Of a stretch of 39,261 bases of DNA, positions 2,489 to 34,907 are shown piece after piece. The notes beneath the pieces were generated by a model. That model was not told the DNA's origin and did not search any database. It saw nothing but the letters and a program-made list of their open reading frames with translations. Source of the stretch: a virus; the IMG/VR virus record IMGVR_UViG_3300028569_000077, positions 1 to 39,261 of that record; one strand, written 5' to 3'. Position 1 is the stretch's first letter; each line of letters opens with the position of its first letter. Both the position numbers and the translations under genes were made by a program.

Positions 2489-3691
2489 ATGAATTACGCT
2501 GAAATTGTTCGACAAAAGATTGCAGAAGGATTTAAAACGTGTAAGGAGATAGCAGAATCATTAGGAATAAAATACGGAGCAAAAGGTCATAGTTCATTAA
2601 GGACTGCATTCAGACGGGAGATGCAAAAGAAAGCTAAACCTCCAAAAGAAAAGATATTAAAAGATCAACAACCGCCAAAGACAACGTCCGAACTTATTGC
2701 ATTTGATTTCGGAAAACGCGCTGAATCTGCAAAGGTAAAGGAGTTAAATGCAAAGTATAATCATTTATTAAAAGCTTACGAAGATTCTGAAAAACGCTTC
2801 GATGCGCTCATAAATATTAAACAGCCCGTAGAAATTGTAAATATTGAGCCTATTGTTTCAGAAAGTAAAAGCGAAACCGTTCCTATTATACAATTAAGTG
2901 ACACTCATTTTGACGAAAGGGTAGAACCTTCAACAATTAATGGTGCGAATAAATATAATTTAGAAATTGCTGCGTCAAGTTGGAGTATGCTAATTCAAAA
3001 CAGTTTAAAAATGATTTACCATGAAAGGAATAATTCTGAAATAAAGCAAGTTGTTATTTGGCTTGGTGGCGATTTTATAAGTGGTAATATTCATCAAGAA
3101 TTAAGAGAAAGCAATTACCTTTCACCAACACAAGCAATACGATTTGCAAAAGAAAAAATTATTACTGCAATCAATTTTTATCTTCAACATGGAAAATTTG
3201 AAAAGATAATTATTCCTTGCAATTTTGGAAATCATGGAAGGACTGAAAAGGAAAAGTTTATAGCAACAGGTTACAGAAACTCATACGAGTGGATGATGTA
3301 TCATGATTTAGCCGATTACTTTTCAAATAATAAAAAGATAGAGTTTGTAATTGGTGATGGGATTTATGTTTATTTAAACATAATGGGCTATGTAAATCGT
3401 TTCTTTCATGGTGATTATATAAAGTATAGCGGTGGTGTTGGAGGTCTTACAATTCCTCTTAGAAAAGCAATTGGAGATATGAATAAAGAAACTGTTGCAG
3501 ACTACAATTTTATGGGTCATTATCATCAGCGTTGGCAAGCAACAAAGGACTGTTTTGTAAATGGTAGCTTAATTGGATTTAATGCTTATGCACAATCAAT
3601 AAGAGCGACACCCGAAGAAAGGCAACAGGGGCTAAACTTTTTAAATAAAAAATACGGTATGATAAGTAGTATGTCAATCTATTGCAGATAA
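2489..3691 (+). CDS. Metallophosphoesterase (calcineurin-like) with N-terminal helix-turn-helix-like region
   Basis: A 400-residue protein. Residues 1-45 look like a DNA-binding helix-turn-helix (AEIVRQKIAEGFKTCKEIAE), and 80-105 is a linker or coiled coil. From residue 130 the full metallophosphoesterase motif set is visible: D138-T-H140, GGD at 193-195, GNHGR at 247-251, HGD at 307-309 and GHYH at 343-346. These are the metal ligands of the calcineurin/Mre11-type phosphoesterase fold. Substrate is unknown; DNA or nucleotides are plausible given the N-terminal domain. It stands alone, away from the recombination genes, with its own promoter. Confidence 0.85.
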   Translation: MNYAEIVRQKIAEGFKTCKEIAESLGIKYGAKGHSSLRTAFRREMQKKAKPPKEKILKDQQPPKTTSELIAFDFGKRAESAKVKELNAKYNHLLKAYEDSEKRFDALINIKQPVEIVNIEPIVSESKSETVPIIQLSDTHFDERVEPSTINGANKYNLEIAASSWSMLIQNSLKMIYHERNNSEIKQVVIWLGGDFISGNIHQELRESNYLSPTQAIRFAKEKIITAINFYLQHGKFEKIIIPCNFGNHGRTEKEKFIATGYRNSYEWMMYHDLADYFSNNKKIEFVIGDGIYVYLNIMGYVNRFFHGDYIKYSGGVGGLTIPLRKAIGDMNKETVADYNFMGHYHQRWQATKDCFVNGSLIGFNAYAQSIRATPEERQQGLNFLNKKYGMISSMSIYCR

Positions 3692-27619: not shown

Positions 27620-27651
27620 AAAATAAAAAACCCGCAAAAGTATGCAGGTTT
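27620..27651 (-). terminator. Rho-independent terminator after the primase-helicase gene
   Basis: On the minus strand AAACC.TGC and GCA.GGTTT-type arms (27628-27636 with 27643-27651, one internal mismatch) enclose a 6-base loop. They are followed by TTTTTTATTTTT. It ends the transcript coming from the gene whose stop is at 27676. Confidence 0.7.
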
Positions 27652-27675: not shown

Positions 27676-29862
27676 TTAAAATGGCAAATCTTCGCTTAAG
27701 TCTGGAAAATGTTTCGGCTCAATTCCAACTAATAATTGTGATGTTGTTTGAGATGTTGAAAGAGGGTAACAATAATAAACTCTACTGCCTTTTTTATCCT
27801 TTACCTGCTTGTATCCTAACCGCTTCAATTCCATTCCAAGAATTTTTGTATTGATTTTCTGCCTTGTTTCAGCCTCAAAATAGACTGCAAAATCAGTCGC
27901 GGTCATTGGTGTGCCTTTTTCCTCTGTTGTTGGGGCAAAATACTTTTGAAGTAATTCACATGCTGAGGTTGGAGCCATGTACAGATAATCATACTTATTT
28001 AGGTAATCCAGTTCGCTTGATTTTCTTTCATATTCAAATCCGCTTTTATATAAATTGTAAGCCTCCATAAGTAGCGCCGTTTTATCAACACTATTGTAAA
28101 TTTCCCAATCGTAACCTTGAAAATCAATTATAATGTAGCGGCTATTACCTGTCAAATCTTTTAAAATATCGTCCTCGTTAGTAGTTCCACAAAGCATTGC
28201 AAGGCGAGGTAATGTAACATTTCCTTCTCCGTAAGGCTTACGCAATGTAAACTCCTCTTTTGAAGATATTGACTTTTGGTGCTCAACATCTTTTTTTGAT
28301 TTGTTGCCGCACTCATCGTCCATTACAACAATTTTTTGACTCATCAAAATTTCAAAATCTGTGTCTTTCATTCCCGATGACACCTCAGCGTAATATGATT
28401 TTAATTCTTTAGTCCATAGCCGCCTCCAAAACTCTGTTTTACCTGTTACTTGCTTAGAATAAAGAATTACAATGAAAGGCGAATGATGCCCATGAATTGA
28501 AGCTATTACACCTACAATCCATTTAGTAAAGAAATATTCCGCGTGTGCACTATCAATTGTTTTAATTGAAGAAATTAGTTTTTTAATGTGACCTGTTGAA
28601 TTATGATGTTTGTTTTGTTCAAAAAAATCTAAAAGCGGATTGTACTCCTGGATAAAATCTGAATTTAAAAGCAACTTAAAAAGCCTTTCTTCGGCCTTTT
28701 GAATTACCTTTTTCATTTTCAAAAATATACTGTTTACTTGTATTGCTTCCTGCTTTTTGCCGCTATCCTCAATATATTGGGTGATGTAATTACGTTTTAA
28801 ATCGTAGTTACCACGTATGAACATTTCCATTTGCGAAACAATATCAAGCTGATCCGATGGGTTTGCCGAAGATTTATTTATTGCCTCAATTTTTTCTGCA
28901 TCAATGTCAATATCTTCAAACTTTTTGAGGTTGGTTGCGATTTGTGATGGAGAAAGGGCGGCGGCTTTACCTTGCTTCGCAGCTTGAATAATTTTTCTTG
29001 TGCGGGGCGAGTGTATTTCAATTCCCGCCGACTTAGCGTAATAGTAAAATGTTGCAATTGTAACAATGTTTGAAGCGCGGTGGCGAATCATTGCATCGTA
29101 CTGCTTATCGCAAATTGCAGAATCATACTTTATTGAGTATTGAGAAACTAAGTGGAAGTATTCGCGCCCGCTTTCATTAAATTGATGTACAAATGAAAAT
29201 CCTATCCTTAACCATTCATGGTAATTATCGCAAAGGTTAATGCGGTTGGCGGTTATCTGTGATAGTATAGATTTAAAATCATCATCAAGAAAAACAACAT
29301 TTTCAATCTTTCGCGGCGGCTTTGCAGTTGGATATTGAGTAAACTTTTCTGCATAAGGGTTAATGTAAAGTTCAGGGTCGTAAGAAACAAAACGCGCCCT
29401 AGATTGATTAACCGATGTAGGGTCAATTATGATATTGTAATTCTTAAATAAATATTCAGAAATTCCGTTAAAAGAATCTCGATGTTTTGCAGGGGCAATC
29501 TTAAATATTGCACAAAGGCCACGTCCAGAAATTGAAGCAAAAAGCGCGTAAACATATTTGTCAGATTGCAAAATTCTGCGCTGAGCATTAAAATTAGTAA
29601 TTTCATCAATATCAATTCCAATGTAACCACTGTGTTTTTCAATTGCCTCGTCTTTTCGCTCTTTAAATGCCCCGCTAATTGTAACCGCTATCGCTTTCTT
29701 TTTAGCTTCGTTCCTAATTTCCTTATCTCCAATTGCTCTAATTGGCAACACAATATCTTGCCAGCGTCCATTTTTAACTGATTCTAAAAATAAATCAATT
29801 GCAATAGTTTCTGTTGACTTGGTGTCTTTTGCTCCATTATAAATCGAAATCATTGCAGCCAT
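27676..29862 (-). CDS. Primase-helicase: BT4734-like primase domain fused to VirE-type ATPase
   Basis: A 728-residue replication protein. Residues 1-170 form a BT4734-like domain with catalytic GIDIDEI (82-88), SGRGLCAIFKI (112-122) and RARFVSYDP (155-163). Residues 210-285 resemble a primase C-terminal (PriCT) domain (YHEWLRIGFSFVHQF). The VirE-type ATPase has Walker A SKQVTGKT (469-476), Walker B IVVMDDE (511-517), sensor AMLCGTTNE (555-563) and an Arg finger region TGNSRYIIID. The C-terminus is SEDLPF, like an SSB acidic tip. Start overlaps the helicase gene end by 13 bases. It probably primes and unwinds DNA at the adjacent origin-like region. Confidence 0.9.
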   Translation of the reverse strand: MAAMISIYNGAKDTKSTETIAIDLFLESVKNGRWQDIVLPIRAIGDKEIRNEAKKKAIAVTISGAFKERKDEAIEKHSGYIGIDIDEITNFNAQRRILQSDKYVYALFASISGRGLCAIFKIAPAKHRDSFNGISEYLFKNYNIIIDPTSVNQSRARFVSYDPELYINPYAEKFTQYPTAKPPRKIENVVFLDDDFKSILSQITANRINLCDNYHEWLRIGFSFVHQFNESGREYFHLVSQYSIKYDSAICDKQYDAMIRHRASNIVTIATFYYYAKSAGIEIHSPRTRKIIQAAKQGKAAALSPSQIATNLKKFEDIDIDAEKIEAINKSSANPSDQLDIVSQMEMFIRGNYDLKRNYITQYIEDSGKKQEAIQVNSIFLKMKKVIQKAEERLFKLLLNSDFIQEYNPLLDFFEQNKHHNSTGHIKKLISSIKTIDSAHAEYFFTKWIVGVIASIHGHHSPFIVILYSKQVTGKTEFWRRLWTKELKSYYAEVSSGMKDTDFEILMSQKIVVMDDECGNKSKKDVEHQKSISSKEEFTLRKPYGEGNVTLPRLAMLCGTTNEDDILKDLTGNSRYIIIDFQGYDWEIYNSVDKTALLMEAYNLYKSGFEYERKSSELDYLNKYDYLYMAPTSACELLQKYFAPTTEEKGTPMTATDFAVYFEAETRQKINTKILGMELKRLGYKQVKDKKGSRVYYCYPLSTSQTTSQLLVGIEPKHFPDLSEDLPF

Positions 29863-31412
29863 GTCGGGAGTATATTAGTGATTGGTTGGAGTGTAGTTAG
29901 TTGTGGTTGTAAATTTTGGGTTGGCGGTGTGGCTTGCAATTTACTAATTTCTGCTTCAATAAATTCCTTTATAAGTTTTTTGTGAAATGGGTTATACTTT
30001 TTACCTTTCGCTTCGCACCATTTACGGGCTTCCAAAACATAAGTTTGTTCAATTGTACTTTGGCTAGTACCTTTCGGCGCATTCTTAATTAACCGCTTAC
30101 CAATTTCATAAAAACTTGCATATTCTTTATATCCTTTATTATTTGCTGAGGTAATAAGGCGCGATACATCAATTCCTTTTGTAAGCACCCTATATTCTTC
30201 ACTTACCAATACTTCTTCAGCAACTTTTTTTGCAGGGTAGTGATACCCGCAATATTTACAATCATTTGATTGTGATGAAATAATTGCTTCACATTGTGGG
30301 CAAGATTTACAAGGTGCAACCCCCACTGTTTTACGTGCCGTAGGAGGATTTTCAAAAATATCTATCCAATCTCTATCGTCCGACCAATCACCTAAGTTTA
30401 CGGCGTTGGCTCCCATGTCAATTGCAATAAACTCATTTTTACCTTCGCAAACTCTTCCACCTCTACCCATTATCTGCAGCCAAAGAGATAATGACATTAT
30501 GGAGCGATTAACAATAAGCCCCATAACCGTTTTTTCATCGAAGCCTTTTGTCATTTTACCGACGCTGCAAAGTATCGCATCAGGTGTGTGCTTTAACCAT
30601 TCAAGTATTTTTTCATATTCTGTTTTACTTACGCTTACAGCATCAACGTGCTTGCAATTATAACCTGCTGCTTTAAAATGTCTGCAGACTTCAATCGAAT
30701 GCGAAACATTACAATTAAATACTAAAGTCTTTTTGTGTTTTAAAAATTTCTCATAATACTTTAAAGTTGACTTAACGTGTTTTGCTTTTGAAAACTCATT
30801 ACCCATTAACCTATCATTAAATTCACCTCCCTTTGTTGCTAATTCATTTCTATCAACAATGTCTTTAGGTGCAATAGTAATATTTTGGCAAAGTGCTTTT
30901 TTTTCAATAAGTTCTTTTATCTGAGGACCAACAATAATATGCTGATAAATATCTTTTAAAGGTTGTTTCTTATTTGCCGATAATGGTGTGGCTGTAAATC
31001 CAAGTAATTTTACCCCTTGAGTAAATGTATGAGCCTTATGCAAAGTTGCAATATGACATTCATCAATTATTCCAAGTCCTATATTGGATGGCATACGTTT
31101 ACCAACACTATTTATCATTGCAACATAAACGCGCGCTTTTGGTACACGCTTCATTCCTGCAAAAATAAATTGAGCAGAAATACCATACCATTCAAATAAA
31201 GTGTTTCTAGTTTGTTTTGCTAAATCTTCAGAATCAACATAAATGATTACATCTGCATTTGACTTTTGAATAAACCGATAAGCAATTGCACTAAACATTA
31301 CTGTCTTACCTGCAGCAGTTGCCGCTTGAATAAGTATTTTATCGTAATACAGAGTTGCTCTTATCGCTTCATTTACAAGATAAAGCTGATAATCGTATAG
31401 TTGTTTTTTCAA
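29850..31412 (-). CDS. DEAD/DEAH-box (SF2) helicase with C-terminal zinc ribbon
   Basis: A 520-residue protein. Helicase motifs: AATAAGKT (residues 30-37), DECH (117-120), TATP (140-143), QIMGRGGR (313-320). A Cys cluster follows, C368-x2-C371-x2-C374 and C385-x2-C388, as in UvsW/RecQ-like phage helicases and type III restriction-like helicases. The only plausible start is a TTG at 31412, about 20 bases after the tRNA-like element. It likely works in replication or recombination, next to SSB and the primase-helicase. Confidence 0.9.
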   Translation of the reverse strand: MKKQLYDYQLYLVNEAIRATLYYDKILIQAATAAGKTVMFSAIAYRFIQKSNADVIIYVDSEDLAKQTRNTLFEWYGISAQFIFAGMKRVPKARVYVAMINSVGKRMPSNIGLGIIDECHIATLHKAHTFTQGVKLLGFTATPLSANKKQPLKDIYQHIIVGPQIKELIEKKALCQNITIAPKDIVDRNELATKGGEFNDRLMGNEFSKAKHVKSTLKYYEKFLKHKKTLVFNCNVSHSIEVCRHFKAAGYNCKHVDAVSVSKTEYEKILEWLKHTPDAILCSVGKMTKGFDEKTVMGLIVNRSIMSLSLWLQIMGRGGRVCEGKNEFIAIDMGANAVNLGDWSDDRDWIDIFENPPTARKTVGVAPCKSCPQCEAIISSQSNDCKYCGYHYPAKKVAEEVLVSEEYRVLTKGIDVSRLITSANNKGYKEYASFYEIGKRLIKNAPKGTSQSTIEQTYVLEARKWCEAKGKKYNPFHKKLIKEFIEAEISKLQATPPTQNLQPQLTTLQPITNILPTWLQ

Positions 31413-31431: not shown

Positions 31432-31538
31432 CAAAGTGGGCAGGATTTGAACCTACATTCTAACGGATGCGTTTCGATATGCTTCCGCACGGGCTATATC
31501 TGCCCTCTCATTCTACCTATATGAGATTGAACCACTTT
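31432..31538 (-). tRNA. tRNA-like element (non-canonical; anticodon not assignable)
   Basis: On the minus strand a perfect 7-bp acceptor stem AAAGTGG/CCACTTT is followed by discriminator G. A 5-bp T-stem with loop TTCAAAT lies immediately beside it (GTAGGTTCAAATCCTGC). A D-like arm has GGTAGA and a TCTCAT/ATGAGA stem. The central part does not fold canonically: a GGGC-AGATATA-GCCC hairpin lacks U33, and a second hairpin (CGGAAGC/GCATCCG with one mismatch) makes the RNA 107 nt long. It may be a degenerate tRNA, a tRNA with an insertion, or a tRNA mimic. It sits between the SSB and helicase genes. Confidence 0.45.
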
Positions 31539-31548
31539 GTTTTTTTAA

Positions 31549-31869
31549 TTAAAAAGGTAAATCATCCTCCACATTTGCGGCTGTTGGTGCTTGGTAATTT
31601 TTGCTAGGGGCTGCGGCTTGCGACTGCGTTCCTGCACGTTTACCATTTCCAATATACACTTTACCTTCTAATTCTCTAAAATCCTTTTTTGAATTCAATT
31701 GAAGAGAGACATTGTTGCCATATTGGTCGACATCATCATTGCTCCAAATTGTAAGATTAACATAAGTTTTTTTGTTTGCATGAACTGTAAAAGCAGAGTG
31801 ATTAGGGTTTTCTTTAAATACTTCCCTTAACTTACTTAATTCAATTGATACATTTGCGAATAGTGCCAT
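31549..31869 (-). CDS. ssb: Single-stranded DNA-binding protein
   Basis: A 106-residue protein. Beta-rich core (FTVHANKKTYVNLTIWSNDD, KVYIGNGK) fits an OB-fold. A Gln/Ala/Pro-rich linker precedes the acidic tip NVEDDLPF, the hallmark by which SSB recruits partner proteins. It is shorter than bacterial SSB and diverged in the core, so T7 gp2.5-like or other OB-fold proteins are alternatives. It is located between the recombination nuclease and the helicase. Confidence 0.7.
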   Translation of the reverse strand: MALFANVSIELSKLREVFKENPNHSAFTVHANKKTYVNLTIWSNDDVDQYGNNVSLQLNSKKDFRELEGKVYIGNGKRAGTQSQAAAPSKNYQAPTAANVEDDLPF

Positions 31870-34871: not shown

Positions 34872-34879
34872 CAAATATA
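34872..34879 (-). promoter_or_regulatory. Promoter -7 box (TATATTTG) for the small early genes
   Basis: TATATTTG on the minus strand, with TTTG copies 17 and 21 bases upstream (plus-strand CAAA at 34897 and 34901), in the gap between the lipoprotein gene and the AT-hook gene. The leader to the ATG at 34853 is about 18 bases. Confidence 0.65.
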
Positions 34880-34907
34880 TAAAAATTTATTAATTGCAAA
34901 CAAATAA

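Follow-up and report, generated by a model that had tools for sequence, protein, structure and literature searches.

The window, that is, the whole stretch of 39,261 nucleotides of virus DNA analyzed here (IMG/VR record IMGVR_UViG_3300028569_000077), belongs to a Bacteroidota-type phage. Between about 34.7 and 27.7 kb it carries a block of called genes, all on the minus strand, flanked by a promoter match at one end and a terminator match at the other. Within this block, a 107-nt tRNA-like element occupies the intergenic gap between a gene for a small protein and a helicase gene, leaving 9 nt on the former side and 19 nt on the latter.

34872..34904, minus strand: match to a Bacteroidota-type promoter (TTTG ... 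TATATTTG) that precedes the block of genes; consensus match only
31549..31869, minus strand: upstream gene, 106 aa, PHROG 24909 (unknown function), ending 9 nt before the element
31432..31539, minus strand: complete tRNA-like element, the RNA running from 31539/31538 (5') to 31432 (3'); 107 nt (31538-31432)
29850..31412, minus strand: downstream superfamily 2 helicase, PF04851; begins with TTG, 19 nt beyond the element
27676..29862, minus strand: primase/helicase, the final gene in the apparent operon
27628..27651, minus strand: intrinsic-terminator-like hairpin after the primase; consensus match only

We infer that the 106-aa upstream protein is SSB-like. No open reading frame of at least 60 aa overlaps the element, and no further Bacteroidota-type promoter was matched between the ends of the gene block at 34.7 and 27.7 kb. 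These consensus matches, together with the gene direction, suggest that the element is co-transcribed within one apparent replication operon. The helicase gene does start with TTG, as an earlier note on this DNA had pointed out, with the TTG at 31412, roughly where homologues have ATG. Identity to the sister phage described below falls sharply at ~31386, just inside the helicase start, marking a mosaic boundary directly after the element.

Architecture and predicted fold of the element

The tRNA-like element proved to be real, with all of its parts present on the minus strand from 31538 to 31432.

31532..31539, minus strand: acceptor stem, 5' strand CAAAGUGG; 31539 and 31432 form an eighth pair
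31527..31531, minus strand: linker UUCAA, 5 nt (2 nt in an ordinary tRNA)
31506..31526, minus strand: D-like arm; stem UCUCAU/AUGAGA, 6 bp; loop AUAGGUAGA with GG
31491..31505, minus strand: anticodon-position hairpin GGGC-AGAUAUA-GCCC; 4 bp and a 7-nt loop, without U33
31463..31488, minus strand: variable-arm-like hairpin GCGGAAGC-AUAUCGAAAC-GCAUCCGU; 5+2 bp, one A.A mismatch
31440..31456, minus strand: T-arm GUAGG-UUCAAAU-CCUGC; 5-bp stem, 7-nt loop
31432..31439, minus strand: acceptor stem, 3' strand CCACUUUG, pairing with the 5' strand

Read 5' to 3' on the minus strand, the first half of the element is C-AAAGUGG UUCAA UCUCAU-AUAGGUAGA-AUGAGA GGGC-AGAUAUA-GCCC GU and the second half is GCGGAAGC-AUAUCGAAAC-GCAUCCGU UAGAAU GUAGG-UUCAAAU-CCUGC CCACUUU-G. 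The acceptor and T-arm, previously described as perfect, hold up: AAAGUGG/CCACUUU pairs at 7/7 positions by Watson-Crick geometry (8/8 counting C31539:G31432), and the T-stem GUAGG/CCUGC has four Watson-Crick pairs and one U.G around the loop UUCAAAU. The extra hairpin corresponds to GCGGAAGC/GCAUCCGU, with its single A.A mismatch, at the variable-arm position. As for the anticodon loop, which the earlier note could not place, a 4-bp hairpin with a 7-nt loop, AGAUAUA, does occupy the anticodon position, but it has G at position 33, where ordinary tRNAs have U33. At the 3' end CCA is not encoded (CU follows G73), and the acceptor identity position is A3:U70, not G3:U70. The two central hairpin loops (31495-31501 and 31471-31480) are complementary over 5 nt (GAUAU:AUAUC), so that a kissing contact between the anticodon-position and variable-like loops is possible; by a rough estimate, such complementarity arises by chance in about 2% of cases. 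The GC content is 0.449 in the element versus 0.328 in its flanks, a value that 8% of windows in the record attain.

At its minimum free energy, the region folds into a cloverleaf-like structure that contains all helices of the tRNA frame (-35.4 kcal/mol, z -3.78) and is much more stable than shuffled sequence, with 0 of 200 shuffles as stable. When the shuffle test was repeated, z was -3.8 for the whole element (1/1000) and -2.2 for the center alone (30/1000), and the predicted probabilities of all 30 pairs range from 0.77 to 1.00. The acceptor and T-arm pair and, with the GG of the D-like loop, could form a tRNA elbow.

The model check proposed in the earlier note returned neither a fitting standard tRNA model nor a clear anticodon. 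ARAGORN called no tRNA at the element or anywhere in the 39,261-base window, and the whole-window Rfam run gave no match for the element site. Run on 221 bases that include the element, the Rfam tRNA model RF00005 reached 19.6 bits (E 0.083) against a cut-off of 29, with an alignment that covers mainly the acceptor/T-arm part. No intrinsic terminator, in the sense of a GC stem followed by a U-run, was found on the transcribed strand at the element site, where CTAAAAAAAACC comes after the element.

The sister phage and the intergenic slot in relatives

In the sister phage 3300027730_000071, the element is kept in place with 1 change in 107 nt, a C to U at 31529 in the unpaired linker. As these two near-identical copies are the only ones found and the substitution rate of the element is about that of the flanking genes, selection on the fold is not measurable. 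Exact-pattern scans of viral contigs for the anticodon-position hairpin, the D-arm, and the V-arm returned the sister phage only, as did the scan for the 5' strand, among the matches listed. The exact T-arm/acceptor 25-mer had no match in bacterial or archaeal genome contigs, and comparison with phage and plasmid records (phages by blastn) yielded only short chance, T-arm, or A-rich matches. A covariance model of the element (R1), run on 26 related whole records and on the record containing the contig L108, found the sister only; its match in the contig L265 (34 bits) is biased, L265 having been chosen by its identical T-arm. T-arm-like matches in the relatives L338 and L340 were rejected as they have no acceptor.

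The same slot is filled differently in four relatives (L009, L010, L011, and L004), whose helicase is 68-69% identical: it holds AGCCCCTGCAAATTGTGGGGGCT with a T-rich tail, a hairpin that appears from its sequence to be intrinsic-terminator-like. In L011 and L004, a gene for a GIY-YIG protein lies between this hairpin and the helicase (PF20815 5e-8, PF01541 5e-6); the nuclease-like gene of L011, at 2871-3338, is in the slot equivalent to that of the window element. Compared with the element, the GIY-YIG gene and the hairpin of these relatives indicate that the slot takes alternative inserts. In phage T4, the GIY-YIG homing endonuclease gene segB likewise lies within the cluster that carries rnaC and rnaD.

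Recurrence of non-decoding tRNA-like frames

Ordinary phage tRNAs (tRNA-Met, tRNA-Pro, and others) have a T-arm identical to that of the element, and this 17-base sequence, GTAGGTTCAAATCCTGC, served as the probe in a scan of viral contigs and of bacterial and archaeal genome contigs. Counting nonredundant matches, a perfect 7-bp acceptor within range, combined with the absence of an ARAGORN tRNA or tmRNA, was found for 19 of 111 viral versus 2 of 122 genome T-arm matches, among the matches listed (Fisher p = 3.5e-5). Both T-arm counts are samples, among the matches listed, and the viral 19 include some elements near ordinary tRNAs as well as the near-identical pair L230/L232; the two genome cases among the matches listed were read as one archaeal intron-type tRNA and one tRNA remnant. 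A strict scan of 2.86 Mb for the acceptor and T-arm gave 47 places, some of them one element fetched repeatedly, against 0.0 in shuffled sequence, so this architecture is not a product of chance. The recurrent elements occur both within tRNA arrays and in regions that have no other tRNA, and several exceed the cut-off of the Rfam tRNA model. Among the 26 related whole virus records, those of L026, L040, and L041 carry abnormal tRNA-like elements elsewhere, with lengths of 90, 97, 137, and 166 nt. By sequence, non-decoding tRNA look-alikes recur in phages, and the element is not unique in kind. No description of a class of non-decoding tRNA-like phage RNAs was found in the literature searched.

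Individual cases vary considerably in form. A phage related to the window (L343, minus strand, 1240-1550 and 2176-2273; L346) has a permuted tmRNA match (RF04321, 55 bits) along with abnormal tRNA-like elements of 97 nt and 166 nt. On the minus strand of L108 (record G027, ~30703), a stand-alone 124-nt tRNA-like element lies directly before a gene with an ATG start, and a long TGCCTTG/CAAGGCA helix replaces its D and anticodon arms. Two short elements, at 1756-1821 of L327 (66 nt) and 6917-6985 of L240 (69 nt), are tRNA-like with acceptor, D-like, and T arms, the anticodon arm being wholly absent from that of L327. In other contigs, tRNA bodies carry inserts of 30-60 nt at the anticodon position (L319 632-749, 758-882, 891-994, and 1182-1309; L274 346-462, 1931-2057, and 2180-2290; L225 1783-1909; L226 6096-6206). 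In several of the inserts, a shared hairpin precedes the motif [A/U]CAGCAA; this family may represent introns, mini-tmRNAs, or something else.

Discussion

In the reading that we favor, to which we assign about even probability, the element is a non-decoding mimic of a tRNA; it would be co-transcribed, be excised by RNase P and RNase Z, punctuate the operon, and possibly leave a stable RNA. In this scenario, the coaxial helix of acceptor and T-arm, with an elbow between the T-loop and the GG of the D-like loop, would be recognized by the host enzymes; RNase P would cut on the 5' side at 31539/31538 and RNase Z on the 3' side after 31432. Excision would form RNA ends and part the message of the SSB-like gene from that of the helicase, and the product would be a 107-nt RNA, probably stable. 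We base this reading on the structure and on the terminator-like hairpin in the relatives' slot, and because relatives have that hairpin in the same place, setting the two genes apart by operon punctuation would be the likeliest benefit. Of the interpretations raised in the earlier note, the RNA-processing signal is thus strengthened, also by its fit between co-directional genes, whereas the degenerate tRNA is disfavored because the helices are intact and such elements are enriched in phages. Nevertheless, RNase P might recognize the element less well because of its eighth acceptor pair, 5-nt linker, and altered D arm.

Since the hairpin in the relatives' slot is of another kind, a plain mRNA-stabilizing or -terminating role without processing would also fit. 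The corresponding explanation, that the element is a cis-acting hairpin cluster that stabilizes or attenuates the message, its likeness to tRNA being unimportant, could also draw on the run of seven T that follows the acceptor on the plus strand. On the transcribed strand, however, no U-run is present and CTAAAAAAAACC comes after the element, while the exact UUCAAAU T-loop and the GG in the D-like loop would be unnecessary for such a role; we consider this explanation improbable. Decay of a captured tRNA gene that has lost its anticodon arm is somewhat less improbable, though still unlikely and less probable than a mimic: the T-arm is that of ordinary phage tRNAs, and with two known copies constraint is not measurable. 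Against this, decay would break stems randomly, but all five helices are intact apart from the single A.A mismatch in the variable-like arm, and features such as the 6-bp D-like stem and the long variable-like arm were gained rather than lost. Few such objects are found with the same T-arm in bacterial genomes (2/122 versus 19/111, among the matches listed), and the window has no other tRNA. We also rejected a remnant of a tRNA-type attP site, as the 5' acceptor strand is present as well and no integrase was found among the proteins scanned, a subset of the ORFs.

A working but odd tRNA, either of class II with the anticodon AUA in the 7-nt loop or with a small intron, is the least probable reading and a very unlikely one. 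Although a 7-nt loop does sit at the anticodon position, and other phages have tRNA bodies with 30-60 nt inserts there, the stem is of 4 bp, U33 is missing, no hairpin offers a standard anticodon, ARAGORN calls nothing, and deleting one hairpin does not yield a normal 17-nt arm. By tRNA identity rules, A1:U72 and G73 are unsuited to tyrosine, and a class II tRNA-Tyr with AUA was rejected on these two features and on U33. A mini-tmRNA, with a GCA-to-UAG frame read as AYRNASVRM, was dropped as well, since neither a tmRNA match nor a conserved upstream signal was found; the frame is not distinguished from chance.

If the RNA is indeed excised, it might act in trans by binding or occupying a host factor, such as a tRNA-cutting defense nuclease, a modifying enzyme, a synthetase, or the ribosome rescue system. 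Retention of the elbow and acceptor with loss of the anticodon, the enrichment of such frames in phages, and the precedent of the tmRNA-like RNA of phage DS6A, which has no coding sequence (PMC11915505), are consistent with this idea. The sequence suggests no target, however, CCA is not encoded, and A3:U70 in place of G3:U70 speaks against a tmRNA-type alanine identity, so that we regard trans action as unlikely, on a par with decay. Slightly more doubtful still is a generalization of the mimic reading, by which the non-decoding tRNA mimics of phages would form a broad, purpose-built class. Its members would keep the acceptor, T-arm, and usually a D-like arm, have the anticodon arm replaced, be freed by host tRNA-processing enzymes, and work in trans to counter the tRNA-handling or tRNA-cutting systems of the host, with T4 species 1 and the window element as two unrelated examples.

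The T-arm control suggests that tRNA-like RNAs of the non-decoding kind recur across phages; if so, these RNAs constitute a testable class that tRNA finders skip. The window offers a simple stand-alone case, with one element in one apparent operon and relatives that have a terminator-like hairpin instead.

Comparison with known systems

The element shares with class II tRNAs (RF00005) the order of acceptor, D-like, variable-like, and T arms, the UUCAAAU T-loop, and the GG in the D-like loop, but it scores below the Rfam cut-off and differs by its missing U33 and anticodon, 5-nt linker, 6-bp D-like stem, and 4-bp anticodon-position stem. Bacterial tRNA-Sec has a 13-bp acceptor/T helix (8+5), a 6-bp D stem, and a long variable arm. 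The element has an 8+5 helix, a 6-bp D-like stem, and a long variable-like arm too; unlike tRNA-Sec, it has no UCA anticodon (its loop is AGAUAUA), and it has a 9-nt D loop and a 5-nt linker, nor is tRNA-Sec its best Rfam match.

The kind of element described here is already known but poorly understood, T4 species 1 being the classic, long-unexplained case; the species 1 and 2 RNAs of T4 were discovered decades ago and still have no assigned function. As RNAC and RNAD, they were confirmed by Northern blotting as late T4 RNAs of unknown function (PMC9697503). Species 1 (rnaC, band C) shares with the element the tRNA-like acceptor, the T-arm, and a long variable-like arm, without an anticodon arm, a likeness established here for rnaC. 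In contrast to the element, which lies by itself between protein genes in 39 kb free of called tRNAs, rnaC and species 2 (rnaD) (139 and 119 nt) lie in a tRNA cluster. We found no sequence similarity of the element to rnaC.

We located rnaC in the T4 tRNA cluster and matched it in 710 phage records; among the matches listed, all were of T-even-type phages. In eight aligned sequences, the acceptor formed from the RNA's own 5' end, a 10-bp V-like arm, and the T-arm have 98.8% of cells paired and include 10 pairs in which both bases have changed, compared with about 40% paired in slid controls and 0 of 500 shuffles, a figure that is not a probability, as the eight sequences are related. Covariation thus supports the species 1 frame, which in turn supports the idea that a tRNA-like frame without an anticodon can be a selected phage RNA, short of proof for the window element. 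In T4 itself (L336 1409-1547), the acceptor appears to consist of the 5' end CG[A/G]UUCG and CGUU[U/C]CG, a pairing in which two positions are U.U mismatches and one pair covaries; CGGAACG is probably wrong as the acceptor, since it does not covary with the 3' strand, whereas the CG[A/G]UUCG 5' end does. A hypothetical coding sequence annotated across rnaC in two records (L471 and L468) is probably spurious.

Finally, the element has no Rfam tmRNA match and has A3:U70 rather than G3:U70, and in having no tmRNA features it differs from the RNA of mycobacteriophage DS6A, which is classed as a form of tmRNA and is about 65 nt long. That RNA, which has no coding sequence and inhibits the host tmRNA when expressed in Escherichia coli, nonetheless resembles the element in having tRNA-like ends without a tag-coding part (PMC11915505).
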